Assembly: GCA_017542245.1 (NCBI GenBank)
Contig: JAFXXN010000135.1
Location: 62,001-126,000, forward strand
DNA length: 64,000 bases
Direction: 5' to 3'
DNA from: Lachnospiraceae bacterium
GTDB lineage: Bacteria > Bacillota > Clostridia > Lachnospirales > Lachnospiraceae
Positions within the stretch are counted from its first letter, which is position 1. Each line of letters opens with the position of its first letter. Position numbers and translations under genes: made by a program. Shown here piece after piece: positions 17,576-56,575 of the stretch. A model generated the notes under the pieces. That model saw only the letters and a list, made by a program, of their open reading frames with translations, did no database searches and was not told the origin of the DNA.

Positions 17576-17615
17576 AAGTTAAGATAAGAAATTATTATTA
17601 GATAGGATTATTAAA

Positions 17616-18371
17616 ATGAGTAAAATTTTTAATGTAGATAATAAGTTTTTTTCAACAATTAATAAAATCGTGGATATGATGTGGCTCAGTTTCCTGTGGT
17701 CAATATGTTCACTGCCGCTCATCTTCCTTGCGATGGTTTTTGTTATAGAATATGATAAGGTGGGCGTTCTGATCCTCGTATTGTTCCCTATAGGATCCAT
17801 AACTGTCGGGCCTTCTTCGGCAGCACTCTATTACGCTGTTGTCAAGTCTGTAAGACATGAGAGAAGTTATGCAACGAAATGCTTCTTCCATGCGTTTAAA
17901 GTAAATTTTAAGATCGGAGCTTTGAGTTCTCTTATTTTCGGTTTCATAGGAGCAGTTCTTATATTTGACATCATTGTAGCCCCTTATCTTGGCTCCAGTG
18001 AGGAATTTTCATCAATTACAAGAGGTATATTCCTCGGTATAGGCGTTTTTGACGTATTTGCGCTTGTATGGGTAAATCCTTTGCTTTCCCGTTTTGAACT
18101 TAAACTAAAAGAACTTATAAAAAACAGTCTGGTTCTTGCGGTTAAAAACATTTTCAGGACGATACTGATGTCTGCTTTGTGGATAGGAATGGGATATTGT
18201 TTCCTTCATTTCTTCGGGTATATCTATCAGTATCTTATCTTCATTCCATTTACCGTTCCAGCACTTTCGGCTTTACTCAGGTCGTTTATAATCGAACCTG
18301 TATTTAAGAGAATTACCGGAGATCCGAATGAGGATTCGGAAAAAGAAGTTGATGCGTGGTATGCGGAGTAA
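17616..18371 (+). CDS. YesL-like DUF624 membrane protein
   Basis: 251 residues with about five hydrophobic segments. The N-terminal DNKFFSTINKIVDMMWLSFLWSICSLPLI and the following GSITVGPSSAALYYAVVK match the DUF624/YesL pattern. Such proteins often lie near sugar ABC transporters and polysaccharide-degradation genes, but their role is unknown. This copy is longer than typical YesL (~210). The Shine-Dalgarno site is weak (ATAGGA). glgB starts 66 bases downstream. Confidence 0.8.
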   Translation: MSKIFNVDNKFFSTINKIVDMMWLSFLWSICSLPLIFLAMVFVIEYDKVGVLILVLFPIGSITVGPSSAALYYAVVKSVRHERSYATKCFFHAFKVNFKIGALSSLIFGFIGAVLIFDIIVAPYLGSSEEFSSITRGIFLGIGVFDVFALVWVNPLLSRFELKLKELIKNSLVLAVKNIFRTILMSALWIGMGYCFLHFFGYIYQYLIFIPFTVPALSALLRSFIIEPVFKRITGDPNEDSEKEVDAWYAE

Positions 18372-18437
18372 AAATTGGGATTATAAGAGTCTGTGACAGG
18401 ACTAATACAGATATAAATAATGATATGGAGGTCAGAT

Positions 18438-20723
18438 ATGGATAAAGAGCTGTATGATATTCTTGATTGGAGCACGATGGAGGCACTGGAGTATTCAGAA
18501 TGTGATGATCCTCATGCGTGGCTGGGACCGCATAAAATAAATAACGGCGTGATATACAATGCATTTATGCCTACAGCAAAGGCTGTGTCGGTGAAATTTA
18601 AGGACAAAACCCTTGATATGGTGCCTACCGATGAAAAAGGTAATTTTTCATTGTTCATAAAGGATAAGAAGATCAAAGAATATAAACTCGTCGTAACTTT
18701 TGATGATGATTCAAAGACTGAGATATATGACGCATATGCTTATGAACCCATGTTTGATTCAGATGACGAAGATAAGTTTATCCGCGGTATACATTACGAT
18801 GTATATGAAAAGCTTGGCGCTCATGTAAAAACCGTTAACGGTGTCAAAGGCGTATATTTTGCTGTCTGGGCACCGAACGCAGAGAGAGTGAGCGTGGTCG
18901 GAGATTTTAATATGTGGGACGGAAGAAGATATCCCATGAGAAAACTTCGCGCTTCGGGCGTGTTTGAACTGTTTATCCCCGGGCTTGACGAGGGTACGGT
19001 ATATAAGTATGAGGTTAAGGCAAAGAACGGTCTTGCTTTCTTAAAAACGGATCCTTACGGAAACAGATTTGAATTAAGACCCAATACCGCAGCTATTGTT
19101 ACCGACCTGTCATTTGAATGGACGGATGAATTGTGGATAGAAAACAGGAAAAATCAGAATATTGATAAAATTCCTATGTCCATATATGAAGTTCATCTCG
19201 GGTCTTGGTTACGCAAGGGTGAAGGTGACAATGATTTTTACAATTACCGCGAGATAGCTGTCAAACTGGCCAAATATGTTAAAAAGATGGGATATACCCA
19301 TTTGGAACTTCTTCCTGTTATGGAGCATCCGTTTGACGGTTCCTGGGGCTATCAGGTTACCGGATATTATGCAGCAACATCCCGTTACGGAACTCCTCAG
19401 GATTTTATGTATTTCATGAATTATATGCATAATGAAGGAATAGGCGTTATACTTGACTGGGTTCCTGCTCATTTCCCGAAAGATGCTTTCGGACTTGCCA
19501 AATTTGACGGAGGATGTCTCTATGAACATAAGGATCCGCGTCTTGGAGAACATCCTGACTGGGGTACACTGATATTTGATTTCGGACGTCCGGAGGTTTC
19601 AAATTTCCTGATAGCAAATGCTCTTTTCTGGGTGAAGAAATATCATGCAGACGGCATCAGAATGGATGCTGTGGCTTCAATGCTGTATCTTGATTACGGA
19701 AGGCGAAACGGTGAGTGGGTCGCAAATAAATACGGAAGCAATGAGAATCTTGAAGCCATAGAGCTGTTAAAGCATTTAAATTCTATTTTCCATAAATGTA
19801 ATGATGGTGCAGTTATCATTGCCGAAGAATCCACTGCATGGCCAAGGATAACCGGAAAGGTTGAAGATGACGGACTCGGATTTGACTTAAAGTGGAACAT
19901 GGGATGGATGAATGATTTCACAGGATATATGAAGCAGGATCCGTTATTCAGAAAGGGCTGTCACGGTATGCTTACTTTCAGCATGATGTATGCATACAGT
20001 GAAAAGTTTGTGCTTGTACTTTCTCATGATGAAGTGGTTCACGGCAAATGCTCTATGCTGAATAAGATGCCGGGATTTATGACTGATAAATTTGCAAATC
20101 TGCGTGCAGCATACGGATTCATGATGGGACATCCCGGGAAAAAGCTTCTCTTTATGGGACAGGAGTTTGCACAGGACAGGGAGTGGAGCGAGGCAAGAAG
20201 CCTTGACTGGAATCTCCTTGATGTGGAACTCAACCAGAAAATGCAGAAATTCTGTGCAGATCTGAATAAGATATATATTACAAAGCCCGCATGTACCGAA
20301 CTTGATAACGATCCTAACGGATTCAAGTGGATGAGCTGCCTTGATGCTGACCACAGTACCGTAAGTTTCATCAGATATGACGGAAAGAAAGAAGATACAC
20401 TGCTCTTTGTATTTAACTTTACTCCTGTAGTATATAATTATTTTATTCAGGCTGTTCCTTATGCAGGCAACTATAAAGAAATATTAAACAGTGATTCGGA
20501 AAAGTACGGCGGTTCGGGAAGAGTTAATTCAAGAGTAAGAAAATCACGTCCCATGCCGAAAGACGGACAGAACAATTCAATAGAAATGGTACTTCCGCCT
20601 CTGTCTGTATGTATATTTGAATATAAGCCTGTACCTGTAAAAGCAGAGACTGAGGATAATACAAAAAAAGCACCTGAAAAAAAGAAAACAAAGGTTACAC
20701 CTATAAAGCCTTCGGCTAAATAG
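18438..20723 (+). CDS. glgB: 1,4-alpha-glucan branching enzyme
   Basis: 761 residues from the ATG at 18438, which has GGAGGT six bases upstream; the in-frame ATG at 18420 lacks one. The enzyme makes alpha-1,6 branches in glycogen. An N-terminal CBM48-like part (WLGPHKINNGVIYNAFMP, then FAVWAPNAERVSVVGDFNMWDG) is followed by the GH13 barrel. Catalytic residues are intact: GIRMDAVASMLYLDY (nucleophile Asp), AEESTAWP (acid Glu) and LSHDEVVHGK (Asp). The C-terminal ~60 residues are a Lys/Pro-rich tail beyond the normal end. The glutamine synthetase gene follows after 21 bases. glgA is 34 kb away; glgC and glgD are not in the window. Confidence 0.96.
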   Translation: MDKELYDILDWSTMEALEYSECDDPHAWLGPHKINNGVIYNAFMPTAKAVSVKFKDKTLDMVPTDEKGNFSLFIKDKKIKEYKLVVTFDDDSKTEIYDAYAYEPMFDSDDEDKFIRGIHYDVYEKLGAHVKTVNGVKGVYFAVWAPNAERVSVVGDFNMWDGRRYPMRKLRASGVFELFIPGLDEGTVYKYEVKAKNGLAFLKTDPYGNRFELRPNTAAIVTDLSFEWTDELWIENRKNQNIDKIPMSIYEVHLGSWLRKGEGDNDFYNYREIAVKLAKYVKKMGYTHLELLPVMEHPFDGSWGYQVTGYYAATSRYGTPQDFMYFMNYMHNEGIGVILDWVPAHFPKDAFGLAKFDGGCLYEHKDPRLGEHPDWGTLIFDFGRPEVSNFLIANALFWVKKYHADGIRMDAVASMLYLDYGRRNGEWVANKYGSNENLEAIELLKHLNSIFHKCNDGAVIIAEESTAWPRITGKVEDDGLGFDLKWNMGWMNDFTGYMKQDPLFRKGCHGMLTFSMMYAYSEKFVLVLSHDEVVHGKCSMLNKMPGFMTDKFANLRAAYGFMMGHPGKKLLFMGQEFAQDREWSEARSLDWNLLDVELNQKMQKFCADLNKIYITKPACTELDNDPNGFKWMSCLDADHSTVSFIRYDGKKEDTLLFVFNFTPVVYNYFIQAVPYAGNYKEILNSDSEKYGGSGRVNSRVRKSRPMPKDGQNNSIEMVLPPLSVCIFEYKPVPVKAETEDNTKKAPEKKKTKVTPIKPSAK

Positions 20724-20744
20724 TTTAAAGGGGGATAATTTTCC

Positions 20745-22847
20745 ATGGAATTATCACAATACTTCGGTTCTAATACATTTAACGATGCCGTTATGAGAGA
20801 GAGACTTCCTCTTGCAGTTTACAAGGCATTGAGAAAGACTATCGATAACGGAGAAGAACTGAGCAGTGAAATTGCCGATACCGTGGCAAATGCGATGAAA
20901 CAGTGGGCTATCGAAAGAGGCGCAACTCATTTTACTCACTGGTTCCAGCCCATGACGGGCGTTACGGCTGAGAAGCATGATTCTTTTCTTGCAGTCGGAG
21001 ATAACGGAAGAGTTCTTATGGAATTTTCGGGAAAAGAGCTCATAAAGGGTGAGCCTGATGCTTCTTCATTCCCGTCAGGAGGACTGCGCGGAACTTTTGA
21101 GGCAAGAGGATATACGGTATGGGATTGTACTTCTCCTGCATTTCTTCGCGAAGATGCTTCGGGAGTTACTTTATGCATCCCTACTGCTTTCTGTTCTTAT
21201 ACCGGAGAAGCCCTTGATAAGAAAACACCGCTTTTGCGTTCTATGGAGGCTATAGATAAGCAGGCTACAAGAATTGTACATCTGTTTGGCAAGAAAGATG
21301 TTAAGCATGTTGAAGTATGTGTCGGAGCCGAGCAGGAGTATTTTCTGATAGACCGTGAAAAGTATCTTAAACGTGATGATCTGATATTTACCGGAAGAAC
21401 GCTTTTCGGAGCAAAGCCCCCGAAGGGTCAGGAAATGGACGACCATTATTTCGGTACTATCAAAGAGAGAGTTTCCCTGTTCATGCATGAACTTAACGAA
21501 GAGCTTTGGAAACTGGGAATCCATGCAAAGACACAGCATAATGAAGCAGCACCCGCACAGCATGAACTTGCCCCTATATTCAGTACCGTTAATATTGAGA
21601 CCGATCATAACCAGCTTGTTATGGAATGTATGAAAAAGATAGCTTTGAGGCATGGCCTTGCATGTCTTCTTCATGAGAAACCGTTCGCAGGCGTAAACGG
21701 TTCCGGAAAACATAATAACTGGTCCCTTGTTACCGATCAGGGTGAAAATCTTATGAAGCCTGGAAAGAAGCCTCATGAAAACATGCAGTTTCTTCTTTTT
21801 CTTGCAGCTGTTATAAAAGCGTGTGATGAAAATGCGGAACTCATTAGAATGTCGGCATCATGTCCGGGTAATGATCAAAGACTCGGAGGAGCAGAGGCAC
21901 CGCCTTCGATAGTGTCGGTATTTATCGGAGAACAGCTTGAGGATATTCTTGCGCAGCTCATTAAAAACGGAAAAGCTACCAGCTCCATAGAGAGAGAAAA
22001 ACTCAGGATCGGAGTAAGTACTATTCCGTATATAAAGAAGGATGCAAATGACAGAAACCGTACTTCGCCTTTTGCGTTTACGGGAAATAAGTTCGAACTC
22101 CGTATGGTAGGCTCTTCGATGTCAATAGCCGATGCCAACACTGTACTTAACAGCATAGTTGCAGACAGTCTCGCTGAGTTTGCCGATGAGCTTGAAAAGG
22201 CAGCAGATTTTGATAAAGCTGTTGTTGAACTGATCTGCAGAACCATAAATGAACATAAACGTGTTATATTTGACGGCAACGGATATTCCAAGGAATGGGT
22301 TGAGGAAGCAGAGAGAAGAGGTCTTCCGAATAAGGAATCATATGTTGATGCCATAGAGAGCCTGACATATGATAATACTATTGAGATATTTGAAAGACAG
22401 GGAGTTTTATCGAAGCAGGAGCTTGAAGCCAGGGCTGAGATAAGTTATGAACTGTATTCAAAAACTGTAAATATCGAAGCCAGGACCATGATAGAGATGG
22501 CTTCAAGGAAATTTATCCCTGCAACCGTAAAATATGTAAAGCTTATAGCCGACACCATTAACGCAGTATCGGCCGCTCTTGATGAGACGGAAGCTGATAA
22601 TACAAGAGAGATGCTCGGAGAATGTCTCGAACTCTTAGGAGATGCAAGACGTGCATTAAAGCGTCTGAATGATAACGTAGGTACAGCTTCACGAATTGCG
22701 GATGAACAGGAAAAAGCCCGTTATTTCAGGGATTATGTGCAGAAAGCAATGCGAGACTTAAGAGAACCCATAGATATGCTTGAAAGTCTTGTAGATGCAG
22801 AACTGTGGCCTGTTCCGACATATGGCGAGATGATTTTTGAAGTATAA
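20745..22847 (+). CDS. glnN: Type III glutamine synthetase
   Basis: 700 residues, matching the long GSIII class (about 700-730) rather than the ~440-470 of GSI. It makes glutamine from glutamate, ammonia and ATP. The GSIII-specific N-terminus ([18 protein letters not shown]) is present, as are [67 protein letters not shown] and [20 protein letters not shown], the metal- and ATP-binding elements. AAAGGGGG lies 10 bases before the ATG. It is embedded between glgB and the ABC-F gene, so nitrogen assimilation and glycogen genes may share a transcript here. Typical of Bacteroidetes and rumen Clostridia. Confidence 0.95.
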
Positions 22848-22894
22848 CAAATAAAATAAACCTATATTTTAAAAGGTTTTCAAAGGAGATTTAA

Positions 22895-24529
22895 ATGATT
22901 CAGGCATGTAATGTAACCTTAAGACTTGGGAAAAGAGCACTTTTTGAGGATGTAAACATAAAGTTTACGGAAGGAAACTGTTACGGACTCATAGGTGCCA
23001 ACGGTGCCGGAAAATCTACTTTCCTGAAAGTACTTACCGGAGAGATAGAGCCTACCAAGGGTGAGGTTGTGATGACACCCGGACAGAGACTGTCCTTCTT
23101 AAAGCAGGATCACTTTCAGTATGATGCATATTCGGTTTTGGATACCGTTATAATGGGAAATCAGCGTTTGTATGACATCATGAAAGAGAAGGAAGCGATC
23201 TACGCCAAAGAGGATTTTACTGACGAGGACGGCATTAAAGCCAGTGAACTTGAAGGAGAATTTGCAAGCCTTAACGGCTGGGAGGCCGAATCTGACGCGG
23301 CACAGTTATTAAACGGTCTTGGTGTGGAGACGGAATATCACTATAAACAGATGAGCGAACTTAACGGTCCGTTAAAAGTGAAGGTACTTCTTGCACAGGC
23401 ATTATTCGGGAATCCGGATATACTTTTACTTGATGAGCCTACCAACCACCTTGATCTTGAAGCTATCAGATGGCTGGATGAGTTCCTGATCAATTTTGAT
23501 AATACCGTAATAGTTGTATCACATGACCGTTACTTTTTAAATAAAGTCTGTACACAGATTGCTGATATTGATTACCAGAAGATCCAACTCTATGCCGGAA
23601 ATTATGATTTCTGGTATGAATCCAGCCAGTTGATGATAAAGCAGATGAAGGAAGCCAATAAGAAGAAGGAAGAGAAAATAAAGGAACTTCAGGAATTTAT
23701 CCAAAGATTCTCAGCCAACGCTTCCAAATCAAAACAGGCTACTTCCAGAAAGAGAGCTCTTGAAAAGATAGAACTTGACGACATCAAACCCTCTAGCAGA
23801 AAGTATCCTTATATTGATTTCAGGCCTAACAGAGAGATAGGAAATGAGGTGCTTACCGTGACCAATCTCTCTAAGACAATAGACGGCGTTAAAATCCTTG
23901 ACAATATATCTTTTGTAATGGGACATGATGATAAAATAGCTTTTGTAGGTGCCAATACACTTGCAGCCACAACTCTGTTTAAGATTTTAATGGAAGAGAT
24001 GGAACCCGATTCGGGAAGCTTTAAGTGGGGAGTTACAACACAGAGGTCATATTTCCCTAAGGATAATACCGAAGAATTTAAAGGGTCGGAGACAATTGTT
24101 GATCACCTTATGCCTTTCTCACCTGTTGATGACCAGCAGTACGTAAGAGGATTTTTAGGAAGAATGCTCTTCGCCGGAGAAGACGGTGTAAAGAAGGTTA
24201 ATGTTCTCTCGGGAGGAGAGAGAGTAAGGGTTATGCTTTCAAAGATGATGATCTTAGGCTCAAATGTTCTTATAATGGATGAACCTACCAACCATCTTGA
24301 CATGGAATCGATCACAGCCCTTAACAACGGTCTTATAAAGTTCCCGGGAGTATGCTTATTTACAGCACTTGATCATCAGTTTATCCAGACCATAGCTAAC
24401 CGTATTATGGAAATAACCCCTGACGGAAAACTTATAGACAAGATTTCTACTTATGATGATTACCTTGAAAATGACGAGATGGCAAGAAAACGTCAGGTAT
24501 TAAGCGTAAATAATGAGGATGAGGACTAA
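22895..24529 (+). CDS. ABC-F family ATPase with one degenerate ATP site
   Basis: 544 residues, two ABC ATPase domains joined by a charged linker (about 240-290), no membrane segment: the ABC-F layout of ribosome-binding proteins (YbiT/YkpA type by length). Domain 1 has an intact Walker A (GANGAGKST) and Walker B (LLLDEPTNHLD), but its signature reads LNGPL instead of LSGGE. Domain 2 has an intact signature (LSGGE) and Walker B (LIMDEPTNHLD), but its Walker A reads G352-A-N-T-L-A-A-T-T, lacking the Gly and the Lys (Ala358). Because ATP sites pair Walker A of one domain with the signature of the other, both defects fall in one site. Antibiotic resistance is not implied. AAAGGAG precedes the ATG. 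Confidence 0.9.
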   Translation: MIQACNVTLRLGKRALFEDVNIKFTEGNCYGLIGANGAGKSTFLKVLTGEIEPTKGEVVMTPGQRLSFLKQDHFQYDAYSVLDTVIMGNQRLYDIMKEKEAIYAKEDFTDEDGIKASELEGEFASLNGWEAESDAAQLLNGLGVETEYHYKQMSELNGPLKVKVLLAQALFGNPDILLLDEPTNHLDLEAIRWLDEFLINFDNTVIVVSHDRYFLNKVCTQIADIDYQKIQLYAGNYDFWYESSQLMIKQMKEANKKKEEKIKELQEFIQRFSANASKSKQATSRKRALEKIELDDIKPSSRKYPYIDFRPNREIGNEVLTVTNLSKTIDGVKILDNISFVMGHDDKIAFVGANTLAATTLFKILMEEMEPDSGSFKWGVTTQRSYFPKDNTEEFKGSETIVDHLMPFSPVDDQQYVRGFLGRMLFAGEDGVKKVNVLSGGERVRVMLSKMMILGSNVLIMDEPTNHLDMESITALNNGLIKFPGVCLFTALDHQFIQTIANRIMEITPDGKLIDKISTYDDYLENDEMARKRQVLSVNNEDED

Positions 24530-24544
24530 TTTAGGATAAAACAG

Positions 24545-26518
24545 ATGCAGAACAGGTTAACACTGGGAGTTTCAGGCAAAAAAAGCAATTTAAAGATAGC
24601 GGTTCCCGCAAAGGGACTTGAGTGGTGCAATATTCTTATCCGTGAAAAGGGTGGGGATTGGACCACTTTTAAGCTTGCTTCCGACGGACTGTATCCTTCT
24701 ATTTTTACCGGTGAACTTAAACTGGATGATAATAAGGAATACGAGTATATTTTTGAATGTGAGAGAGGATATTTCCTTGATGACCGTTCCAGGAGAGTTG
24801 TAGATCCCGGGCAGTATGGAAAGCTCGGATTTACTGCTCAGGAAAAGGATCTTAAGAAAAGAAATATACTTTCTGATACTCTCGGTAAGGTTTCAGCAAT
24901 AGAGAATACGGAATTCGACTGGAAAAAAGACAAAAGACTGTGCATACCTGCATCTGATATGATAGCTTATAAACTGCACGTAAGAGGATTTACGATACAT
25001 GAATCTTCCGGAATAAAGCATCCCGGAACATTTAAAGGAATATGTGAAAAGCTGAATTATCTGCGTTCACTCGGTATTACTACACTGATCCTTCAGCCAT
25101 GTTATGAATTTAATGAGCTTATGGATTATCATATGAATATCGGTTGTGAGACTGCAGGAGATGTTTTACGTACAAGGATCTTTATGCAGCCTCCCGAAAC
25201 CATGCCTCAGTCAAGGCTGAATTTCTGGGGATACGGAGCACAGGGTATGTATTTTGCACCCAAATCAGGGTATGCTTCCGAACCTGAAAAAGCATGTACA
25301 GAATTTAAGACCATGGTTCGTCTCATGCACAGTGCGGGAATAGAAGTGATCATGGAAATGGATTATTCGAGTGATTTAAGTGAAAGTTTTATTCTTGACA
25401 ATCTTAGATTCTGGACTATGGAATACCATATTGACGGATTCAGGGTGAACGTTGATAAAATTCCTGTAAAACTGATCGTAAATGATCCATATCTATGTAA
25501 TATTAAGCTTATCGGAAGAAATTTCAATCCGGATTTATTCGGACGTGAAGATTTCAGAAACAGGATAATTGTGTCAAATGACGGGTTCCAGGATGTTATG
25601 AGGCGTTTCCTTAAAGGTGATGAGGGACAGCTTCACAGTGCTTCGGAACTTATCCAGGATAACGGAAGACGTTTTGGACGTTTAAATTATATGGCCGATC
25701 ATGACGGATTTACGCTGAATGATGTTTTCAGTTATGATGAGCGTCATAATGAAGCTAACGGTGAACATAATCATGACGGTCGCGAAGCAAATTACAGCTG
25801 GAATTGCGGTGCCGAAGGAAATACAAAAAAACGAAAAGTGCTTGATTTAAGAAACAGAATGATAAAAAATGCGTATACATTATTGTTTTTAAGTCAGGGA
25901 TCACCGATGATTTTTGCAGGGGATGAATTCGGTAATACTCATGAAGGCAACAACAATCCGTACTGCTGTGATAATGAACAGGGCTGGGTTATCTGGTCAA
26001 AATCCAAAAGAGCGGGAGAGCTAAAGGAGTTTTTAAAAGATCTTATCCGTATAAGAAAAGATCATCCGATATTCAGAAACCCGAAATTCCTTTCAGGAAA
26101 TGATTTCTCATATACGGGAGTCCCGGATATATCTTTTCATGGAACAAAGGCATGGTATCCTGATTTCGGTTATTATTCGAGAACACTTGGAGTTTTACTT
26201 AACGGTGCATATGCTCAAGGGAATGACAACAGCTTTCTGATACTGATAAATACTCACTGGGAGGCTCATGAGTTCCTGCTTCCCATAATGAAGAGGGGAG
26301 AATGGGAATTCCTTTTCTCGACTCATAGTATGATAAAGAGTATAATGAAAAATACTCATGAGCAGAAAGAACTGGTTCCTCCAAGGACAATATGCCTGTA
26401 TTCTTATAAAGAAAAGAAACGGCATTTCCCCGAAGGAGATACAGAGACTGAAATAACAGAAAACGGGAAAAAAGACATATTTGAAGAAAAAGGTACGGAA
26501 ACTGAGGCAACTGTATGA
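24545..26518 (+). CDS. Isoamylase/GlgX-like GH13 protein, predicted catalytically inactive
   Basis: 657 residues. An N-terminal CBM48-like domain (to ~120) precedes a GH13 barrel closely similar to GlgX/isoamylase: YKLHVRGFT, HPGTFKGICEKLNYLRSLGI, FWGYGAQGMYFAPKSGYAS, ADHDGFTLNDVFSYDERHNEANGE, SWNCGAEGNT and GDEFGNTHEGNNNPYC. However, region I reads EMDYSS where DVVxNH is expected, the nucleophile Asp in GFRxD is Asn302, and the acid Glu of AEPWD is Arg325. Only Asp387 of the triad remains. It therefore probably binds glycogen without debranching it. It follows the ABC-F gene by 15 bases and overlaps the TraX-like gene by four (ATGA). A true debranching enzyme is presumably elsewhere. Confidence 0.85.
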   Translation: MQNRLTLGVSGKKSNLKIAVPAKGLEWCNILIREKGGDWTTFKLASDGLYPSIFTGELKLDDNKEYEYIFECERGYFLDDRSRRVVDPGQYGKLGFTAQEKDLKKRNILSDTLGKVSAIENTEFDWKKDKRLCIPASDMIAYKLHVRGFTIHESSGIKHPGTFKGICEKLNYLRSLGITTLILQPCYEFNELMDYHMNIGCETAGDVLRTRIFMQPPETMPQSRLNFWGYGAQGMYFAPKSGYASEPEKACTEFKTMVRLMHSAGIEVIMEMDYSSDLSESFILDNLRFWTMEYHIDGFRVNVDKIPVKLIVNDPYLCNIKLIGRNFNPDLFGREDFRNRIIVSNDGFQDVMRRFLKGDEGQLHSASELIQDNGRRFGRLNYMADHDGFTLNDVFSYDERHNEANGEHNHDGREANYSWNCGAEGNTKKRKVLDLRNRMIKNAYTLLFLSQGSPMIFAGDEFGNTHEGNNNPYCCDNEQGWVIWSKSKRAGELKEFLKDLIRIRKDHPIFRNPKFLSGNDFSYTGVPDISFHGTKAWYPDFGYYSRTLGVLLNGAYAQGNDNSFLILINTHWEAHEFLLPIMKRGEWEFLFSTHSMIKSIMKNTHEQKELVPPRTICLYSYKEKKRHFPEGDTETEITENGKKDIFEEKGTETEATV

Positions 26519-27240
26519 AAGGGATTAGTTCAAATACCTTAAAAATACTGGCTGCAGTTTCCATGGTTATAGATCATATAACGTTCTGTTTTATCCCAAA
26601 GCTAACCGTTACAGGTGATGAAAATCTGATATGGTATCTTGGACGGGGAATAGGACGTTCTGCATTTATCATATTTGCATTTCTTCTTGTAGAGGGGTAT
26701 TTTTATACCGAAAATTTCAAAAAATATCTGTTAAGGATGTTTATTGCAGCCGTTATTTCAGAAGTACCGTTTGATCTTATGTGCGGCACACTTGACGGCT
26801 GGCTGATTTTAACATCACAGAATGTTATGTTTACATTCGTTATCGGGCTTCTTTTGATTGAAGCTTTGGAGTTTTTGAGGAAGACTTATCTGGAAAAATC
26901 TGTCCTGAAATATAACATTTTTGCTGGAATAACCTGTGCATTGGGTTTTGTTGCGGCATTTTATCTTAGGGTGGATTACGGAATGGTCGGTATCGGACTT
27001 ATCCTGATTTTTTATTTCTTCAGAAACAGGGGATGGAGACTGAGTGTTGCTGTTGTTATATGGGCCATCGTATGTCTGTTCCTTGAACATCAGCTTGAAT
27101 GGGCCGGACTTATAGCTCTTGTTCCTATAATGAAGTTTTATAACGGGAGCAAAGGCAGGGGCCTTAAATGGTTTTTCTATATATTTTATCCTGTACATAT
27201 GCTTCTGCTGGGATTAATATGTATGGCGGTATATAAGTGA
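26515..27240 (+). CDS. TraX-family membrane protein
   Basis: 241 residues with about seven hydrophobic segments. The TraX signature is clear: ISSNTLKILAAVSMVIDHI at the start, GRSAFIIFAFLLVEGY and RMFIAAVISEVPFDLM. F-plasmid TraX acetylates pilin, and chromosomal relatives in Firmicutes are believed to be membrane acyltransferases of unknown substrate. The start codon overlaps the stop of the previous gene, so translation is coupled to the isoamylase-like protein. No conjugation genes are nearby, so a surface-glycan acylation role is more plausible than pilin modification; this is inference. Confidence 0.85.
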   Translation: MKGISSNTLKILAAVSMVIDHITFCFIPKLTVTGDENLIWYLGRGIGRSAFIIFAFLLVEGYFYTENFKKYLLRMFIAAVISEVPFDLMCGTLDGWLILTSQNVMFTFVIGLLLIEALEFLRKTYLEKSVLKYNIFAGITCALGFVAAFYLRVDYGMVGIGLILIFYFFRNRGWRLSVAVVIWAIVCLFLEHQLEWAGLIALVPIMKFYNGSKGRGLKWFFYIFYPVHMLLLGLICMAVYK

Positions 27241-27271
27241 TTTTAAGTTAAGATAAGAGAAAGGAACATCA

Positions 27272-27967
27272 GTGAAAGAGATATTTGAGAGTTCTGATTT
27301 TGGACCGGCAGCTCTTTCTCATGATTTTATAGAAATAGAATCGGGCGGGAGAAAATATTACGGCGGTTCTCAGAATTTTTACGGAACTGACAGGGAAAAA
27401 CGATGCGGATGCGGCATCACAGGAGCGGCTGATGTTCTTATGTATCTTGAAGCGGTCGAAAACGGAAATTATACTATGCCGCTTGATAAATTCTTAAGAC
27501 TGTCGGAAGAACTTAGAAAAAAGTATATTCCTATTATTCCGGGGCGGGGAGTAAATGCATTTTTGCTTGCTAGCGGGATGAACAGGTATTTCAGGGCCAA
27601 GAGCATGAAATATCGTGCAAAATGGAAATGTACTTCTTTTAACAAATGGGAAACAGCAGTAAAAATGCTCAATAACGATATCCCGGTTATTGTGGCTATC
27701 GGAAATAATTTCCCGTTTGTATGGGGCAAAAAGGCCCTTAACCTGTATGTAAAAGATACTATAAATTCAGGAACTGAAGAGATATATAAGAGAGAACAAT
27801 CGGTTTATGGGCATTTTGTCGTTATAACCGCTATAAAAGGAAACTGCCTCACTATATCATCGTGGGGGAGAAAATATTATATCAATATAGATGAGTTTGA
27901 TCGTTACGTAGTGAAACACAGCACTCATATATACAGCAATATTCTTGTTATTAAGAAAAATAGCTGA
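27272..27967 (+). CDS. Papain/C39-like cysteine peptidase-fold protein
   Basis: 231 residues from a GTG with AAAGGA seven bases upstream. No signal peptide or membrane segment. The layout suits a papain-like fold: Gln34 (GGSQNF) as an oxyanion residue, then CGCGITGAADVLMYL with Cys47 at a helix start, and YGHFVVITAIKGN with His181 followed by a strand pair and a SSWGRKYYINIDEF segment that could supply the third residue. C39-like proteins in gut Firmicutes show the same spacing. The product lacks a partner transporter here, so a bacteriocin-processing role is not supported. Confidence in the fold is moderate; activity is inference. Confidence 0.5.
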   Translation: MKEIFESSDFGPAALSHDFIEIESGGRKYYGGSQNFYGTDREKRCGCGITGAADVLMYLEAVENGNYTMPLDKFLRLSEELRKKYIPIIPGRGVNAFLLASGMNRYFRAKSMKYRAKWKCTSFNKWETAVKMLNNDIPVIVAIGNNFPFVWGKKALNLYVKDTINSGTEEIYKREQSVYGHFVVITAIKGNCLTISSWGRKYYINIDEFDRYVVKHSTHIYSNILVIKKNS

Positions 27968-27972
27968 TTTTG

Positions 27973-27999
27973 TTAGCACTCGATAAAATTGAGTGCTAA
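27973..27999. promoter_or_regulatory. CIRCE element (HrcA operator)
   Basis: TTAGCACTC, nine bases, then GAGTGCTAA: a perfect match to the CIRCE consensus bound by the heat-shock repressor HrcA. It lies 6 bases after the stop of the preceding gene and 7 bases before the -35 box of the htpG promoter, so htpG is the evident target. In B. subtilis htpG is not an HrcA gene. Confidence 0.95.
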
Positions 28000-28006
28000 T
28001 TTTTGC

Positions 28007-28035
28007 TTGACATTTTGTTGCAATAGTATTATTAT
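28007..28035 (+). promoter_or_regulatory. Sigma-A promoter of htpG
   Basis: TTGACA at 28007-28012 and TATTAT at 28030-28035, spacer 17, directly after the CIRCE element and 41 bases before the start codon. Confidence 0.75.
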
Positions 28036-28076
28036 AGTAGCAATGAAATATGAAAGGTAGATGCTAAAGGGCATCA

Positions 28077-30200
28077 ATGGGTATTATTAAGATGAGTACA
28101 GAGAAAGGTAATCTATCAATTAATTCCGAAAACATATTCCCTATTATCAAAAAATGGCTGTATTCCGACCATGATATTTTTTACAGAGAGCTTATCTCAA
28201 ACGGTTGTGATGCTATCACAAAGCTTAAAAAGCTTTCCATGATAGGTGAATTTGATGAGCCTGACGGTGAGGAATATAAGATTGAGGTACGTGTTAACCA
28301 GGAAGAAAAGACTATAAAAGTCATTGATAACGGTATCGGTATGACAGCCGATGAGGTTAAAGAATACATAAATCAGATTGCATTTTCGGGAGCAGCTGAT
28401 TTCCTTGAGAAATATAAGGATAAGGCAAACGAGGATCAGATCATAGGTCATTTCGGACTTGGTTTCTATTCGGCTTTTATGGTTGCCCACAAAGTGACAA
28501 TTGATACTTTATCATATAAGAAAGATGCTGCTGCGGTTCACTGGGTTTCAGAAGAAGGCATGCAATTTGAAATGTCGGAAAGTGACCGTAAGGAGAGAGG
28601 AACAGAAATTATATTGTATTTAAATGAGGACAGCTATGAGTTCTCAAATGAATACAGGGCAAAAGAAGTACTTGACAAATACTGTTCTTTTATGCCTGTT
28701 CCGATCTATTTTGTAAACGAGAACGCTAAGCCCGAAGAAAAGAAAGAAGATAAGAAAGACGAGACTAAAGAAGAGGGTGAAACAGAGGAGAAAAAGGGAC
28801 CGAAGCCGATTAATGAAACAGCACCTCTGTGGACTAAACATCCCAATGACTGTACTGAAGAAGAATATAAGACTTTCTATCGCAGTGTATTCCATGACTA
28901 CAAGGAACCTCTGTTCTGGATACATCTGAACATGGATTATCCTTTTAACTTAAAGGGTATTCTTTACTTCCCGAAGCTTAATCTTGAATATGATAAGCTT
29001 GAAGGTGTTATAAAACTTTACAGTAATCAGGTATTTATAGCAGATAACATTAAGGAAGTAATTCCCGAATTCCTCATGCTTCTAAAGGGTGTCATCGATT
29101 GTCCCGACCTCCCTTTGAACGTTTCAAGATCGGCACTTCAGAATGACGGATTTGTTAAGAAGATATCTGATTATATTACCAAGAAAGTAGCCGATAAGCT
29201 TACCGGCATGTTTAATGTAGATCGTGAGAATTATGAGAAGTACTGGGATGATATCTCACCTTTCATCAAGTATGGCTGTCTGAAAGATAACAAGTTTAAG
29301 GATAAAGTTAAGGACACCATGCTCTTCAAGGATCTTAATGGCAAATACCTTACATTAAAAGAATATCTTGATTCGGTATATGCTAAGGACAATGCTGAAA
29401 ATACAGATGGAGAAGCTTCAGAAAAGGATACGGAATATTTTGATAAGGCTGTAGAAGGGACGGAGAAAGAAGCAGCTGCAGATAATTCCGAAGAGAAGAC
29501 CGAAGAAGATAAGCCGGAAAAGGTTTCAGGTGAAGTAGTAGGTGAAGACGGCGAGGAAACAGAAGGAGAGAAAGAACCAGAAAAACAGAAGGTTTATTAT
29601 GTATCCGATGAGAAACAGCAGAGTCAGTACATAAAGATGTTTAAGGATGAGGGAATGAATGCAGTCCTTCTTACTCACAACATCGACAGTCCTTTCATTT
29701 CTCAGCTTGAAGCCGATAATGAGAAGATCGCTTTCTTAAGAGTCGATGCCGATCTTACCGATTCACTTAAGGCTGATGTTGACAAGAAAGAACAGAAGAC
29801 CATTGACAAAGAGCAGAAGGCTTTAGAGAAGATATTCAGGGAAGTTTTAAAGAATGACAAGCTCGAAGTTAAGGTTCAGAAGCTTAAGAATGATAAGGTT
29901 TCTTCCGTTATTACCCTTTCAGAGGAAAACCGCCGTATGAACGACATGATGAAGATGTACGGCATGGGCGGTATGGACACTGATCTTTACGGCGGACAGG
30001 TTACACTTACACTTAATTCCGAGAATGAGCTTGTAAAATATATTTATGATAACAAGAAGGGCAAGAATACCGAACTTATAGTTCATCAGCTTTACGATCT
30101 TGCCATGCTGAGTCATAAACCTTTGGCACCTGAGGCAATGACTGAGTTTATAGATAGAAGCAATGAGATCATGAAGATACTTACCGCAAAAGAAGCATAA
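28077..30200 (+). CDS. htpG: Hsp90 chaperone HtpG with two acidic inserts
   Basis: 707 residues, longer than the usual 620-650. The start at 28077 is chosen because AAAGGG lies five bases upstream; the alternative Met six residues on (MSTEKGN) lacks a site. The GHKL ATPase motifs are intact: ELISNGCDAITKL (the usual Asn-Ala becomes Gly-Cys), VIDNGIGMT, GHFGLGFYSAFMVA and GTEIILYL. Two charged, disordered stretches explain the extra length: about 218-246 (Lys/Glu), at the junction of N-terminal and middle domains, and about 438-503 (Glu/Asp/Lys), within the later middle domain. The first is where eukaryotic Hsp90 has its charged linker. CIRCE and a sigma-A promoter precede it. Confidence 0.96.
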   Translation: MGIIKMSTEKGNLSINSENIFPIIKKWLYSDHDIFYRELISNGCDAITKLKKLSMIGEFDEPDGEEYKIEVRVNQEEKTIKVIDNGIGMTADEVKEYINQIAFSGAADFLEKYKDKANEDQIIGHFGLGFYSAFMVAHKVTIDTLSYKKDAAAVHWVSEEGMQFEMSESDRKERGTEIILYLNEDSYEFSNEYRAKEVLDKYCSFMPVPIYFVNENAKPEEKKEDKKDETKEEGETEEKKGPKPINETAPLWTKHPNDCTEEEYKTFYRSVFHDYKEPLFWIHLNMDYPFNLKGILYFPKLNLEYDKLEGVIKLYSNQVFIADNIKEVIPEFLMLLKGVIDCPDLPLNVSRSALQNDGFVKKISDYITKKVADKLTGMFNVDRENYEKYWDDISPFIKYGCLKDNKFKDKVKDTMLFKDLNGKYLTLKEYLDSVYAKDNAENTDGEASEKDTEYFDKAVEGTEKEAAADNSEEKTEEDKPEKVSGEVVGEDGEETEGEKEPEKQKVYYVSDEKQQSQYIKMFKDEGMNAVLLTHNIDSPFISQLEADNEKIAFLRVDADLTDSLKADVDKKEQKTIDKEQKALEKIFREVLKNDKLEVKVQKLKNDKVSSVITLSEENRRMNDMMKMYGMGGMDTDLYGGQVTLTLNSENELVKYIYDNKKGKNTELIVHQLYDLAMLSHKPLAPEAMTEFIDRSNEIMKILTAKEA

Positions 30201-30245
30201 GTATCCGTTACCTACGCTCGGCATGCCGGGAGTACAGGGGAAGAT

Positions 30246-31478
30246 ATGAATAGCAGAGAAGATTTACTGATGCAGATCTGGCGTGACTATTATGACGAGA
30301 TACTTGATGTCAATCTTGACAGAGGAACGTTTGAAAGTCTGATCGACCCAAATGCCAAGAACGCCAGAAAGGGGTTTATAGAAATTGAAATAATGCTTAT
30401 GTCTCAGAAAATGGTGCATCCGGATGACCGTACCGTATTTGGCCAGTTCTTTGATAAGAAGGTCATACTGGAAGGAATGAAGAACGGAACATTTGTCAGG
30501 AAACTGAATTTCAGGATGCACCGTGGAGACGGCAAATATTTCTGGGTTAAAGTTAAGGGCATAATGCCCTCAAAGGGTAATGAGGAAGAAAATAAATATT
30601 TCGTCTGTTTCAGAATCCTTGACAATGCTTCCGATGAGGATATGAGTTATCGGAAGCTGCTCAGTGTTTCACTGATGCATGAAAAAGAAATATCAAGTCA
30701 GCTGAAGGGACTTTTTGAAAAATTTGCTTCAGAAATGAAAAGCCCGTTAAATGACATTGTCGGTCTTGCAGATATCGCTCAGAATACTGTTTCAGATACG
30801 GCTAAAACTATAGAACGGCTAAAGCTTATAAATGAGAAGACTGCCGAGATAAACAATCTCATGGAAGAAATGCTGGCTGAAAGCCAAAAGAAGAATGAGG
30901 AAGTAGCTCTGCGTGATGATGAGAGTTTTTGCGAACTTGTTGCCAAGACGGGAAAGAACATGCGTTCCGGAGCCGACGACGCAGAGAATGATAGAAGCGG
31001 TGATGAAGAAGATCAGGTAAGCGAGGTTGAGAGAACTCTTCAGAAGATAGGAGTGGGAGCCACACCTTCAACGGCCGATCCCGAAGATTTTGATTTTACG
31101 GGAAAGAAGCTTCTTATTGTTCCGGACAGTGAACTTGGCGGAGAAATAATGCTTGAACTTCTTACGGAAAGAGGCGCCGTAGCTACTACAATATGCAGCG
31201 GGAAAGAAGCTGTAAGAGATTTTATCATCAAACCGCCTCATACTTATGATCTTGTATTGGTAGATATCGGTGTAGAAGATCTGGACGGATATTCGGTCGC
31301 TCACTGTATAAGACTTTCCTGTAAGGAAGATGCAGGAACTATCCCGATATTTGCATTGTCTACAAAGGGAGTTGCGGAGTCGATAGTAAATACAAGGGAA
31401 AACGGCGTAAACATGATCTTTTCAAAACCTGTGGACTATGGAATGCTTTTTCTTAAAATGCATGAGGCGATGGGATAA
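30246..31478 (+). CDS. PAS, degenerate HisKA and receiver domain protein
   Basis: 410 residues, soluble. A PAS-like domain (about 1-125; VHPDDRTVFGQFFDK, KLNFRMHRGDGKYFWVKVKG) leads into a helical pair that aligns with the dimerisation domain of histidine kinases: FASEMKSPLNDIVGLADIAQ, where the usual SHEIRTPLN has Ser162 in place of the phosphorylated His. No HATPase domain follows; instead there is an acidic linker and a receiver domain (about 285-405) with acidic LIVPDSE, phospho-acceptor LVLVDIG (Asp340), Ser/Thr FALSTKG and Lys FSKPVD. It could therefore receive but not donate phosphate as a kinase. The upstream gene is htpG, 45 bases away. Confidence 0.7.
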   Translation: MNSREDLLMQIWRDYYDEILDVNLDRGTFESLIDPNAKNARKGFIEIEIMLMSQKMVHPDDRTVFGQFFDKKVILEGMKNGTFVRKLNFRMHRGDGKYFWVKVKGIMPSKGNEEENKYFVCFRILDNASDEDMSYRKLLSVSLMHEKEISSQLKGLFEKFASEMKSPLNDIVGLADIAQNTVSDTAKTIERLKLINEKTAEINNLMEEMLAESQKKNEEVALRDDESFCELVAKTGKNMRSGADDAENDRSGDEEDQVSEVERTLQKIGVGATPSTADPEDFDFTGKKLLIVPDSELGGEIMLELLTERGAVATTICSGKEAVRDFIIKPPHTYDLVLVDIGVEDLDGYSVAHCIRLSCKEDAGTIPIFALSTKGVAESIVNTRENGVNMIFSKPVDYGMLFLKMHEAMG

Positions 31479-31495
31479 AAGCGCAAAAAAATAAA

Positions 31496-31568
<73 letters not shown>

Positions 31569-31585
31569 TTATTGCGTACTTATTA

Positions 31586-31614
31586 ACTATACAGATTAAA
31601 ACATGAATTGTCAA
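31586..31614 (-). promoter_or_regulatory. Promoter of tRNA-Thr (minus strand)
   Basis: On the minus strand, TTGACA (plus 31609-31614) and TATAGT (plus 31586-31591) with a 17-base spacer, ending 18 bases before the tRNA 5' end. Confidence 0.75.
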
Positions 31615-31663
31615 TATTTTTTTTGATATTTGTGAAAATGATTTTTTGGAAGGATATAATAAA

Positions 31664-32437
31664 GTGAAGATTTCATTGGATGACCGGAATTCGGATGATA
31701 TTAAACAGAAAGAAAATGCTGCCAAAACCGTTCTTGATGAGAGTGCAGATATATATCGCAACAGAGAGCAGAAAACAGCATCCGAAACTTTTAAGGATCT
31801 TAAGGGAAAGGCAAAGGTAAGGTATTTTGTAGATTACTATCTTGGTAAGATAATACTCGTGACTGCTATTCTTGCTATTATAGGAAGTGTACTTTATACA
31901 ACTCTGAAACCTAAGCCGTCTCCTGTTTTTTACACAATAATAGTAGTTTCACCGTTTACTCCGGCAGGCTTAGACCAGTTTAAGGCTGATCTCGAAGATA
32001 TGTTTGTTACCGATCCTAAAAAGGAAGAGGTAATAATGGATAACAGCTACAGTTCCATCGTGGCAGATTATAACTCCAGCATAGCTTATACCATGCATAT
32101 GGCAGCCCAGGAAGTGGATATGCTTATCCTTACCAAAGATGAATTAAAATATCAGGTTAACAGCAAAGCACTCGTCCCGATAGAAAGTGTTATTTCAAAA
32201 CAGGTATATGAAAAAATTCCTGATTCCGCTAAACACAAGGTAATTCCCACATATCCTTTGGATAACGGAGATTTTGAGGAAGGGGAAGAAGCTGTATACG
32301 GACTAAATATTGAGAGTTTCCTTACAAAAATAAACGGTTTTGAAACAACTGATAAATATGTTATTGCATTCACAGGTATCTCTCAACATGCCGATAAGTT
32401 TGATGATGTTGTAAAATACATATTTGATATCAAGTGA
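31664..32437 (+). CDS. Hypothetical single-pass membrane protein
   Basis: 257 residues from a GTG at 31664 with GGAAGG ten bases upstream; a TTG at 31646 would overlap that site. About 60 hydrophilic N-terminal residues are followed by one strong membrane segment (LGKIILVTAILAIIGSVLYTTL) and an extracellular domain of about 165 residues with no recognised motif. VDMLILTKDELKYQVNSKALVPIES is reminiscent of a substrate-binding-protein fold, but this is weak. It is followed by a terminator and has a divergent tRNA gene upstream. Confidence 0.7.
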   Translation: MKISLDDRNSDDIKQKENAAKTVLDESADIYRNREQKTASETFKDLKGKAKVRYFVDYYLGKIILVTAILAIIGSVLYTTLKPKPSPVFYTIIVVSPFTPAGLDQFKADLEDMFVTDPKKEEVIMDNSYSSIVADYNSSIAYTMHMAAQEVDMLILTKDELKYQVNSKALVPIESVISKQVYEKIPDSAKHKVIPTYPLDNGDFEEGEEAVYGLNIESFLTKINGFETTDKYVIAFTGISQHADKFDDVVKYIFDIK

Positions 32438-32442
32438 TAATA

Positions 32443-32482
32443 ATATGCCTGCGAAAAAATACAAAAACGCAGGCATATTTTA
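32443..32482 (+). terminator. Rho-independent terminator
   Basis: Perfect 11-base stem ATATGCCTGCG / CGCAGGCATAT around an A-rich loop, followed by TTTAT. It lies six bases after the previous stop codon. Confidence 0.85.
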
Positions 32483-32569
32483 TGTGATAGTTGTGCAAAT
32501 TGTACAAAAATAAAAAATATATAAAAAAGTTCTTGAAAAATAATAAATTATAGATATAATAATATCTTG

Positions 32570-33277
32570 TTAAGGGCGTCGGACGAACACATTTGGGTGT
32601 CGGCTGATGTCTTTATTTTTTATCCTTATCTCAAGTGAAGGGTGTATCTCTTTTAGTTTTTCTGCAAGTTTTATGGAACGGGTGTTACTAAAGTCAGTAT
32701 TGATGATTATATTATTAAGATTCAGAACCGAACGACAATACTTAAGTATAAAATCGCATGCTTCAAATGCATATCCCTTTCCGAAGTATTTTTTAAAAAG
32801 AGCATAAGAAAGCTCAGGCTCATCCGTTCCGTCTATTCCGGCAATACCTATCATTCCACCCTGCTTTAAAAATATTCCCCAGATACCGTATCCAAGAAAA
32901 CCATAACTGTATCTGATATATGCTTCGTGCCTGAGTTTGAAATCTTTTGGGCTTAATCCTGCCATGGAGATATCATTCAACACATCCGGATAGGATTTTA
33001 TAAGGCGTCTGTATAAATACATGTCTTTATCTGAGAGTTCCCTTATGATAAGCCTTGGGGTATTTCCTATTGTACCCGCAAGACCGTAAGCATGGCAGTA
33101 AGTAAGATCCAGCATGGCAATATCACATTCATCCGAATATTCAATAATATAACTGATATCATCATGGCAGTTTTTAAGAGTTCCTTTTAATATAGGAACA
33201 GAGTGAGAATCTGCCCATCGAATGATATCATTGGGGATTTTATATTCATTTTCTAAAATGACCATTGGAATATTCAT
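32570..33277 (-). CDS. GNAT family N-acetyltransferase
   Basis: 235 residues on the minus strand. The C-terminal ~150 residues are a GNAT fold: RLIIRELSDKDMYLYRRLI (first strand and helix), IGIAGIDGTDEPELSYALFKKYFGKGYAFEAC (beta4 and the acetyl-CoA-binding loop) and NIIINTDFSNTRSIKLAEKL (beta5-alpha4). This is the RimJ/RimL-like kind. The N-terminal ~75 residues (WADSHSVPILKG, CDIAMLDLTYCHAYGL) form an extra module that I do not recognise. GGAGTAAGG precedes the ATG. It points away from the GH9 gene. Confidence 0.85.
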   Translation of the reverse strand: MNIPMVILENEYKIPNDIIRWADSHSVPILKGTLKNCHDDISYIIEYSDECDIAMLDLTYCHAYGLAGTIGNTPRLIIRELSDKDMYLYRRLIKSYPDVLNDISMAGLSPKDFKLRHEAYIRYSYGFLGYGIWGIFLKQGGMIGIAGIDGTDEPELSYALFKKYFGKGYAFEACDFILKYCRSVLNLNNIIINTDFSNTRSIKLAEKLKEIHPSLEIRIKNKDISRHPNVFVRRP

Positions 33278-33356
33278 GCCTTACTCCATATAACCAAAAT
33301 GATATATCAAATTATTTACCAAATAATAGCACAGTAAGATCATTATTTCAACTCGT

Positions 33357-33402
33357 TATGTTTAGGATTTTCTTGTTCAGAAGATAGATTTTCTTAAACA
33401 TA
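33357..33402. repeat. Inverted repeat in the GNAT-GH9 divergent region
   Basis: TATGTTTA at 33357-33364 and TAAACATA at 33395-33402, 30 bases apart, between the divergent acetyltransferase and GH9 genes. It could be an operator for either gene; no convincing GH9 promoter boxes are visible. Confidence 0.3.
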
Positions 33403-55138: not shown

Positions 55139-56575
55139 ATGAAGAACATTTTATTTACTGCATCAGAGGGTGTACCTTTTATAAAGACAGGTGGTCTTGC
55201 AGATGTTATAGGATCGTTACCTAAGTATCTGAACAAGGATGAATTTGATGTAAGGGTTATTCTGCCTAAATATACCTGCATGAAAGAAGAACTGAAAGCC
55301 GGTATGAAGTATATGACCCATTTTTACATGGATCTTAATTGGAGAAGACAGTATGTCGGCATTTTTGAGACCGAATATGAAGGAGTAAAATACTATTTTA
55401 TCGATAATGAATTCTATTTCCAGGGATTTGCACCATACGGAAATATTTATGAGGATATCGAGAAATTTGCTTTCTTCTGCCGTGCGGTTCTTTCGTCGCT
55501 GCCGGTTATAGGCTTCAGACCCGACATAATCCACTGCCATGACTGGCAGACCGGACTTATTCCCGTATTTCTTCATGACAACTTCCAGAGCAATGATTTC
55601 TATTGGGGAATCAAGACCATTATGACCATACATAACCTGAAATTCCAGGGTATCTGGGATAAAAAGGTAGTAAAGGAGATTACGGGTCTTTCGGATTATT
55701 ATTTTACTCCCGACAAATTGGAATATAAGGGAGACGCAAACTATCTTAAAGGCGGCATAGTTTATGCCGATTATGTTACTACGGTCAGCACCACATATGC
55801 CGAAGAAATAAAGATGCCTTTCTACGGAGAGGGACTAGACGGACTTATGAGGGCTCGTTCAAACTGCCTCTGCGGTATCGTGAACGGACTTGATTATAAT
55901 GAATATAATCCCGAAACCGACAAGCTGATAGTAAATAATTTTAACTCTAAAAATTTCAGGGTTGAAAAAGTAAAGAATAAGATAGCACTTCAACAAGAGC
56001 TTGGCTTAGAGGAGAATCCGGACAAATTCATGATCGGTATCTGCTCAAGACTTACCGACCAGAAGGGGCTTGATCTCGTTGACTGTGTAATAGAAGAGAT
56101 ATGTGCCGAGGATACTCAGTTCGTAGTACTCGGAACAGGCGATCCAAAGTATGAGAATCTTTTCAGGCATTTTGCCTGGAAATATCCAAACAGGGTTTCA
56201 GCGAACATTTTCTATTCAAATGAGCGTTCGCACAGGATTTATGCAGCCTGTGACGCGTACCTCATGCCTTCGCTGTTTGAACCGTGCGGACTTAGCCAGC
56301 TGATGAGCTTAAGGTATGGAACCGTTCCGATTGTCAGGGAGACCGGAGGTCTTAAGGATACTGTAGATCCATACAATGAATATGAGAACTCAGGAGACGG
56401 TTTCAGCTTCTGTAACTATAATGCCCACGAGATGCTTGCCACGATAAGATACGCTAAATCTGTTTACTATGGTAAGAAACGTGAGTGGCATAAGCTTATT
56501 GACAGAGGAATGGCTACAGATTTTTCATGGAACAATTCCGCAAAGCAGTACGAAGAGCTTTATAGGAGGCTTTGA
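55139..56575 (+). CDS. glgA: Glycogen synthase (ADP-glucose)
   Basis: 478 residues, GT5 family, normal length. It extends glycogen from ADP-glucose. The ADP-glucose motif KTGGLADVIGSLPK is near the N-terminus; CHDWQTGLIPVFL and the C-terminal ICSRLTDQKGLDL and MPSLFEPCGLSQLMSLRYGTVPIVRETGGLKDTV carry the nucleotide-binding Glu and Arg/Lys. GGGAGG precedes the ATG. It is unlinked to glgB (34 kb away) and sits between recN and murE; a terminator follows. Confidence 0.96.
   Translation: MKNILFTASEGVPFIKTGGLADVIGSLPKYLNKDEFDVRVILPKYTCMKEELKAGMKYMTHFYMDLNWRRQYVGIFETEYEGVKYYFIDNEFYFQGFAPYGNIYEDIEKFAFFCRAVLSSLPVIGFRPDIIHCHDWQTGLIPVFLHDNFQSNDFYWGIKTIMTIHNLKFQGIWDKKVVKEITGLSDYYFTPDKLEYKGDANYLKGGIVYADYVTTVSTTYAEEIKMPFYGEGLDGLMRARSNCLCGIVNGLDYNEYNPETDKLIVNNFNSKNFRVEKVKNKIALQQELGLEENPDKFMIGICSRLTDQKGLDLVDCVIEEICAEDTQFVVLGTGDPKYENLFRHFAWKYPNRVSANIFYSNERSHRIYAACDAYLMPSLFEPCGLSQLMSLRYGTVPIVRETGGLKDTVDPYNEYENSGDGFSFCNYNAHEMLATIRYAKSVYYGKKREWHKLIDRGMATDFSWNNSAKQYEELYRRL

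Follow-up and report, generated by a model that had tools for sequence, protein, structure and literature searches.

A predicted noncatalytic isoamylase-like protein, lacking domain B, in most sampled genomes of the Lachnospiraceae

The closest described noncatalytic isoamylases are those of plants. According to the available part of PMC12510319, ISA2 is reported from the Chloroplastida, carries an extra N-terminal beta-sandwich and works with ISA1; it has kept the surface site SBS1 and lost SBS2. In maize ISA1, the mutants R504C, N561S, W578R and N628K all fall in the border lobe, and W578 makes direct glucan contact in the surface site SBS2 (PMC12510319, in part). The masking, recruiting and arranging of chains have been proposed as roles for the plant ISA complexes (PMC12510319, in part). 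A bacterial noncatalytic GlgX family was not found in the open-licence literature searched, and the available parts of PMC4236520 and PMC11046441 do not mention a dead isoamylase in bacteria. Here we describe a candidate for such a family, represented by one gene of the window, that is, of the whole 64,000-nucleotide stretch of DNA that was analysed (Table 1).

Table 1. Features of the window at and around the pseudo-isoamylase gene, with the observation on which each rests (fractions out of 78, members of the main alignment; out of 119, further loci)
Feature	Position	Strand	Basis or conservation
glgB, branching enzyme, separated from the pseudo-isoamylase by two genes	18420..20723	+	Pfam
ABC-F ATPase, ends 15 bp upstream	22895..24529	+	Pfam ABC_tran (two stretches) and ABC_tran_Xtn
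Pseudo-isoamylase ORF, 657 aa	24545..26518	+	Dead type carried by 161/200 genomes of the same family
Diverged N-terminal domain (aa 1-115) occupying the CBM48 place	24545..24889	+	Family profile against ISA1 aligns from profile position 8
Region I, EMDYSS (aa 271-276) replacing DVVxNH	25355..25372	+	His 0/78, 2/119
Deletion point aa 279/280, about 44 residues of domain B gone	25379..25384	+	Region I-II spacing
Asn302, nucleophile position	25448..25450	+	Asp 0/78, 2/119
Arg325, acid/base position	25517..25519	+	Glu 16/78, 12/119
Arg353, matching maize ISA1 R504 (border lobe)	25601..25603	+	Arg 76/78, 118/119
Well-kept beta7-beta8 block (aa 382-484) containing HDGFTL, NYSWNCGAEG and GNNNPYCCDNE	25688..25996	+	Conservation count
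Asp387, third catalytic position	25703..25705	+	Asn in most relatives; Asp 31/119
Asn402, matching maize ISA1 N561 (border lobe)	25748..25750	+	Asn 78/78, 118/119 (one gap)
Trp419, matching maize ISA1 W578 (SBS2 glucan contact)	25799..25801	+	Trp 71/78, 101/119
Asn469, matching maize ISA1 N628 (border lobe)	25949..25951	+	Asn 78/78, 118/119 (one gap)
TraX-family protein, start overlaps pseudo-isoamylase stop by 4 bp	26515..27240	+	Pfam TraX
231-aa ORF, GTG start	27272..27967		No Pfam match at E<=0.001
tRNA gene	31496..31568	-	Sole Rfam match in 14000-34000
glgA, glycogen synthase	55145..56572		Same window

The only Pfam family that matches the 657-aa product is alpha-amylase (43.6 bits against a cut-off of 22). 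The GlgX equivalog model TIGR02100 matches it at 324.6 bits (E=1e-96), below the cut-off of 640.9, and three relatives score 325, 269.6 and 291.8 bits against that cut-off. Among solved structures, ISA1 of plants and algae and GlgX of bacteria come closest, with ISA1/GlgX matches down to E=2.5e-73; the ISA2 chains rank lower. These scores confirm a sequence kinship with GlgX far above chance and uphold the GlgX/isoamylase-like fold named in the first-pass annotation. An ISA1 profile alignment accommodates the N-terminal domain, the barrel and the C-terminal domain, consistent with isoamylase/GH13_11 descent; Pfam CBM_48 finds no match in the N-terminal domain (aa 1-115).

The other relative found in the genome with this query is the second, intact homologue for which the first-pass annotation had proposed to look: a GlgX encoded by a 698-aa open frame on contig C101 (L010), which scores 697.7 bits with TIGR02100 and carries the motifs DVVFNHT, FRFDLA, IAEAWD and HD. 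Further, more distant GH13 genes are also present. Contamination of the assembly is estimated at 8.58%. That C101 is a contaminant was considered and rejected: its tetranucleotide correlation is 0.984 with C8:1-20k and 0.859 with C8:150-170k, the two C8 pieces themselves being correlated at 0.860, so that C101 is compatible with the same genome as the query, short of proof.

The catalytic motifs were read from alignments with this GlgX and with that of E. coli, and were followed through a 78-member alignment (the query, 29 family loci and 48 named loci) and 161 carriers (the query, 29 loci, 12 further genomes and 119 loci). Region I, DVVFNHT in the GlgX of the same genome, has become EMDYSSD; region II has changed from FRFDLA to FRVNVD (F299-R-V-N302) and region III from IAEAWD to IGRNFN (L322-I-G-R325), while H386-D387 of region IV are kept. 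Asn302, Arg325, EMDYSS and Asp387 thus stand where the first-pass annotation had put them. Its remark that only Asp387 survives describes the query and does not extend to the relatives, since at position 387 Asn occurs in 48 of the 78 members and Asp in 11. Its claim of a lost active site, in turn, is borne out by the relatives, which share the losses: the nucleophile Asp, the region I His and domain B are absent from all 78, and the Asp/Glu pair is kept in no orthologue read. No dead-type member among the 161 carriers or in the 78-member alignment combines nucleophile and acid. The two of the 119 further loci that do have the nucleophile Asp (L166 and L260) lack both the acid Glu and domain B, and no intermediate between the dead type and intact GlgX occurs among the sequences read. 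Judged by these alignments, query and relatives alike lack the catalytic Asp/Glu/Asp set of GlgX, and alpha-1,6-hydrolysis (debranching) has almost certainly been lost.

As the spacing of the motifs indicates, the loss goes beyond the catalytic residues to which the earlier account had confined it, since domain B, a stretch of about 44 residues, has gone too. Regions I and II lie 28 residues apart in the query as against 72 in its own GlgX and in E. coli GlgX, and the missing stretch corresponds to domain B of GH13 enzymes. The short spacing of 27-28 is found in 77/77 pseudo-type loci, in 119/119 further loci and in all 161 carriers, and a spacing of 72-74 in intact GlgX (the genome's own, that of E. 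coli and 31 of the best 80 of 593 relatives). For the 12 further genomes and the 119 loci, the spacings were read from alignments trimmed to the columns of the reference, among which are those of domain B.

The genome set comprises 200 genomes of the window's family (Lachnospiraceae, going by named relatives), 164 of them with completeness of 90% or more and contamination of 5% or less; 175 have a match and 161 carry the dead type. Among the 12 further carrier genomes, the sequences of G074 and G147 stop before region IV. The best 80 of 593 named relatives comprise 48 of the dead type, 31 intact and one broken (L098, with intact motifs and region IV missing), the last being excluded from both classes; L016 was excluded from alignment A1, which used 28 of the 29 family loci, and remained in the spacing and conservation counts. 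The 48 dead-type loci among these best 80 of 593 name no phylum but Bacillota and are mostly Lachnospiraceae, with Butyrivibrio, Roseburia, Dorea and Oribacterium among the genera; L051 and L067 are uninformative. A search of 391 genomes of the class with the family profile (E<=1e-60) gave 22 matches, of which 14 are from the same family and near full-length (584-846 bits). The eight from other families, classed by match location and frame length and not by residues, begin at profile position 275-278 in frames of 676-752 aa. Because they begin just past the domain B point, as intact GlgX does, the dead type appears to be confined to one family, and from its sequence distribution it is fixed in most sampled genera of that large family of gut bacteria.

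Phylogenetically, the two types are distinct. A FastTree phylogeny of 78 dead and 33 intact sequences separates them with support 1.0, and an ultrafast bootstrap tree of 27 dead and 33 intact sequences does so with UFBoot 100; rooted on E. coli GlgX, the intact sequences adjoining the dead clade are mostly from Clostridia. These trees hold no plant sequence. In two species of one genus (G225 and G379), the dead protein has a dN/dS (YN00) of 0.062 at 94.3% identity and the intact GlgX one of 0.025 at 98.1% identity, values that rest on one pair of ten per set, the other nine having given none, presumably through saturation. In this pair the dead protein changes faster than intact GlgX yet is clearly constrained. 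Together with the presence of the type in 161 of 200 genomes, this sustains the earlier view that selection and not decay is at work, and these comparisons show the remainder of the dead-type chain to be under purifying selection.

The constraint is unevenly distributed. A position conserved in at least 90% of intact enzymes counts as retained if 80% or more of the dead members keep it; on this measure the beta7 segment retains 20/25 and the beta8 segment 17/21, followed by beta1-beta2 (14/21) and the C-domain (4/5). The segment up to region I retains 8/18, the N-terminal part 4/18, region II 3/15, beta5 3/24 and the segment after it 1/16; domain B retains 0/21. Four residues were matched to maize ISA1 by counting in the alignment with ISA1 chain 9j60_A, where one constant offset (11) fits all; they were picked after the block pattern had been seen, against a background retention at 85% of 66/184. 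The counts show the beta7-beta8 half, whose counterpart in plant ISA1 contains the border lobe and part of SBS2, to be among the best-kept parts of the protein. The glucan-site reading is weakened by Trp419, whose position is not Trp in 7/78 and 18/119 members. Folding alone may account for the conservation of the block; beta1-beta2 and the few C-domain positions are likewise well kept.

A noncatalytic glucan-binding role is favoured because the fold and the border-lobe half are kept in bacteria that make glycogen. The window itself contains glgA, so this genome possesses the GlgA route to glycogen. In the family, GlgA exceeds its cut-off in 194/200 genomes, 159/161 of the carriers and 35/39 of the non-carriers; the association with the dead type (Fisher p=0.014, kinship ignored) is a weak one, GlgA being present almost everywhere. 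We give about an even chance to a glycogen-binding scaffold or modulator, in which glucan binding would be joined to a role in glycogen. The retained surface would bind alpha-glucan chains of intracellular glycogen without cutting them, and the bound chains would be positioned or shielded for the real enzymes, namely GlgA, GlgB, phosphorylase and whichever debranching enzyme is present, with an effect on glycogen structure and turnover. The partner would probably not be GlgX alone. The glycogen scaffold or sensor suggested in the first-pass annotation fits the retained half.

The gene neighbourhood lends this role no support. The first-pass annotation placed the gene next to glgB, and this is inaccurate: the immediate upstream gene is the ABC-F ATPase, and between it and glgB comes a type III glutamine synthetase. 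Nor can the linkage serve as functional evidence or be taken as a general feature. For 33 loci the available flank reaches 5 kb or more upstream and 3 kb or more downstream; among these, a glgB homologue lies within the distance limit of 5.5 kb in one and anywhere in the fetched flank in three, and homologues of GlgA, GlgC and GlgP (E. coli queries, that for GlgP partial, plus the GlgA of the window) occur in the flanks of none. The DUF624-glgB-GSIII-ABC-F-HtpG stretch recurs in L045 and L076 only, and L062 has its glgB homologue elsewhere. Within 5.5 kb, the same 33 loci have DUF5662 (16), a UvrD-like helicase (15), ABC-F (12), GltX (12), TraX (4, with the window's TraX as query) and HtpG (3), and by type they divide into ABC-F (10), GltX/UvrD (12), UvrD only (3) and neither (8). 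A TraX cluster is found just downstream in 18/77 loci, where flank length is uneven. DUF5662 is a frequent downstream neighbour, for example at L047:11917-12471. The locus is inherited alongside housekeeping genes, and its linkage to glgB is local.

That the gene sits among housekeeping and not glycogen genes at these 33 loci counts against a glycogen role. The protein could have left glycogen altogether and become a folded platform, perhaps together with the neighbouring TraX, DUF5662 or ABC-F products. The recurring neighbours are non-glycogen genes, in the window the stop codon of the pseudo-isoamylase overlaps the start of TraX, and DUF5662 is near in about half of the loci (16/33). Even so, the neighbours vary between locus groups, as would be expected of mere positional inheritance, and the glucan-site region is well kept, so that we regard this as unlikely, though worth keeping in view.

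Co-occurrence with other enzymes bears on the scaffold or modulator role and on a partnership with GlgX. Intact GlgX was called with a domain-B query at E<1e-30, GDE_C at E<1e-50 and type I pullulanase over its cut-off; the genomes are drafts and absences in the following counts are accordingly uncertain. The 200 genomes include 161 with the dead type, 58 with intact GlgX, 55 with both, 106 with the dead type only and 36 with neither; three (G004, G048 and G053) have intact GlgX without the dead type. The dead type goes with intact GlgX (55/58, Fisher p=0.0007, kinship ignored). Type I pullulanase is found in 49 genomes and GDE_C in 38 (59 over Pfam's lower cut-off), and neither is associated with the dead type in this set (p=0.68 and p=0.36, kinship ignored). 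Intact GlgX, type I pullulanase and GDE_C all went undetected, at the thresholds given above, in 75/161 carriers. Nearly all of these 75 have glycogen synthase.

An ISA2-like obligate partner would form a heteromer with intact GlgX and tune its activity. Plant ISA2 is the precedent (PMC12510319, in part), the dead paralogue is present in 55 of the 58 genomes with intact GlgX, and the window's own genome holds both proteins. An obligate pairing is nonetheless improbable because intact GlgX is missing at E<1e-30 from 106/161 carriers, including the same-genus genome G134 (99% complete); this tells against a strict partnership of the ISA2 kind, which the first-pass annotation had cited from plants. 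The kept region also differs, being that of SBS2 here and SBS1, with SBS2 lost, in ISA2 (PMC12510319, in part). A facultative partnership with GlgX is possible because 55/58 GlgX genomes have the dead paralogue. More tentatively, and at somewhat less than an even chance, the near-universal dead isoamylase could be a standing part of the glycogen machinery that organises chains through its retained surface site without any active isoamylase, a bacterial counterpart of ISA2 with different losses.

It is very unlikely that the protein remains catalytic through a rebuilt active site. Its fold is kept, position 271 is occupied by an acidic or amide residue (E 43, Q 18 and D 16 of 78 members), and the Glu at the acid position is kept in 16/78. 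On the other hand, nucleophile and acid are never found together in the members checked, domain B is gone, and the barrel has gained no new invariant acidic pair across the 78-member alignment: of nine positions newly conserved in the dead type, the only acidic ones are D520 and D528, both towards the C-terminus. A c-di-GMP-sensing regulator of glycogen can be modelled on Streptomyces GlgX, which is activated by c-di-GMP (PMC9530166, in part), and the window has an HD-GYP-like gene, named by eye, 8.6 kb upstream of the pseudo-isoamylase. This reading was rejected and is scarcely credible, as the ExR(X)6R signature occurs in the first 110 aa of 1/78 members and the HD-GYP gene recurs in 1/77 loci (flank length uneven). 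A recent pseudogene or an assembly error, which the missing catalytic residues and the contamination estimate might suggest, has a negligible probability given the identical deletion in open frames in 161/161 carriers read, the dN/dS of 0.06 (one pair) and the single split from intact GlgX; the orthologues and the dN/dS rule a recent pseudogene out.

The dead type has consequences for annotation and for experiment. Where a genome lacks a debranching enzyme, homology-based surveys of GlgX may mistake this protein for one. Two glgX homologues are reported for Blautia obeum (PMC10395257, in part), one of which may be of the dead type. If the protein binds glycogen, it would offer a bacterial test system for the functions that noncatalytic isoamylases are now proposed to have in plant starch.

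Compared with GlgX/TreX (GH13_11; TIGR02100), the dead type is alignable lengthwise through the N-terminal domain, barrel and C-terminal domain, shares the beta7-beta8 block with its HDGFTL, NYSWNCG and GNNN motifs, and has mostly clostridial GlgX as its nearest intact relatives in the tree. It differs in lacking the nucleophile, region I and domain B, in reaching half the model score and in lying outside a glg cluster. GlgD, the regulatory subunit of GlgC, offers a parallel as the regulatory sister of an enzyme of glycogen metabolism (PMC10395257, in part), but it belongs to a different enzyme and works with an active sister. With plant ISA2 the dead type shares the status of a noncatalytic GH13_11 paralogue conserved across a whole lineage (PMC12510319, in part). 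Unlike ISA2, it keeps the SBS2/border-lobe region (one SBS2 contact, W578, could be placed), has had domain B cut out, and in most carriers is without an intact sister. The 657-aa query starts at the CBM48-like part; the ISA2 chains in the PDB are 800-870 aa long. Noncatalytic isoamylases were thus known from plants before, and what appears to be new, from sequence comparison, is the loss of domain B, along with the kept half and the independence from an active sister.
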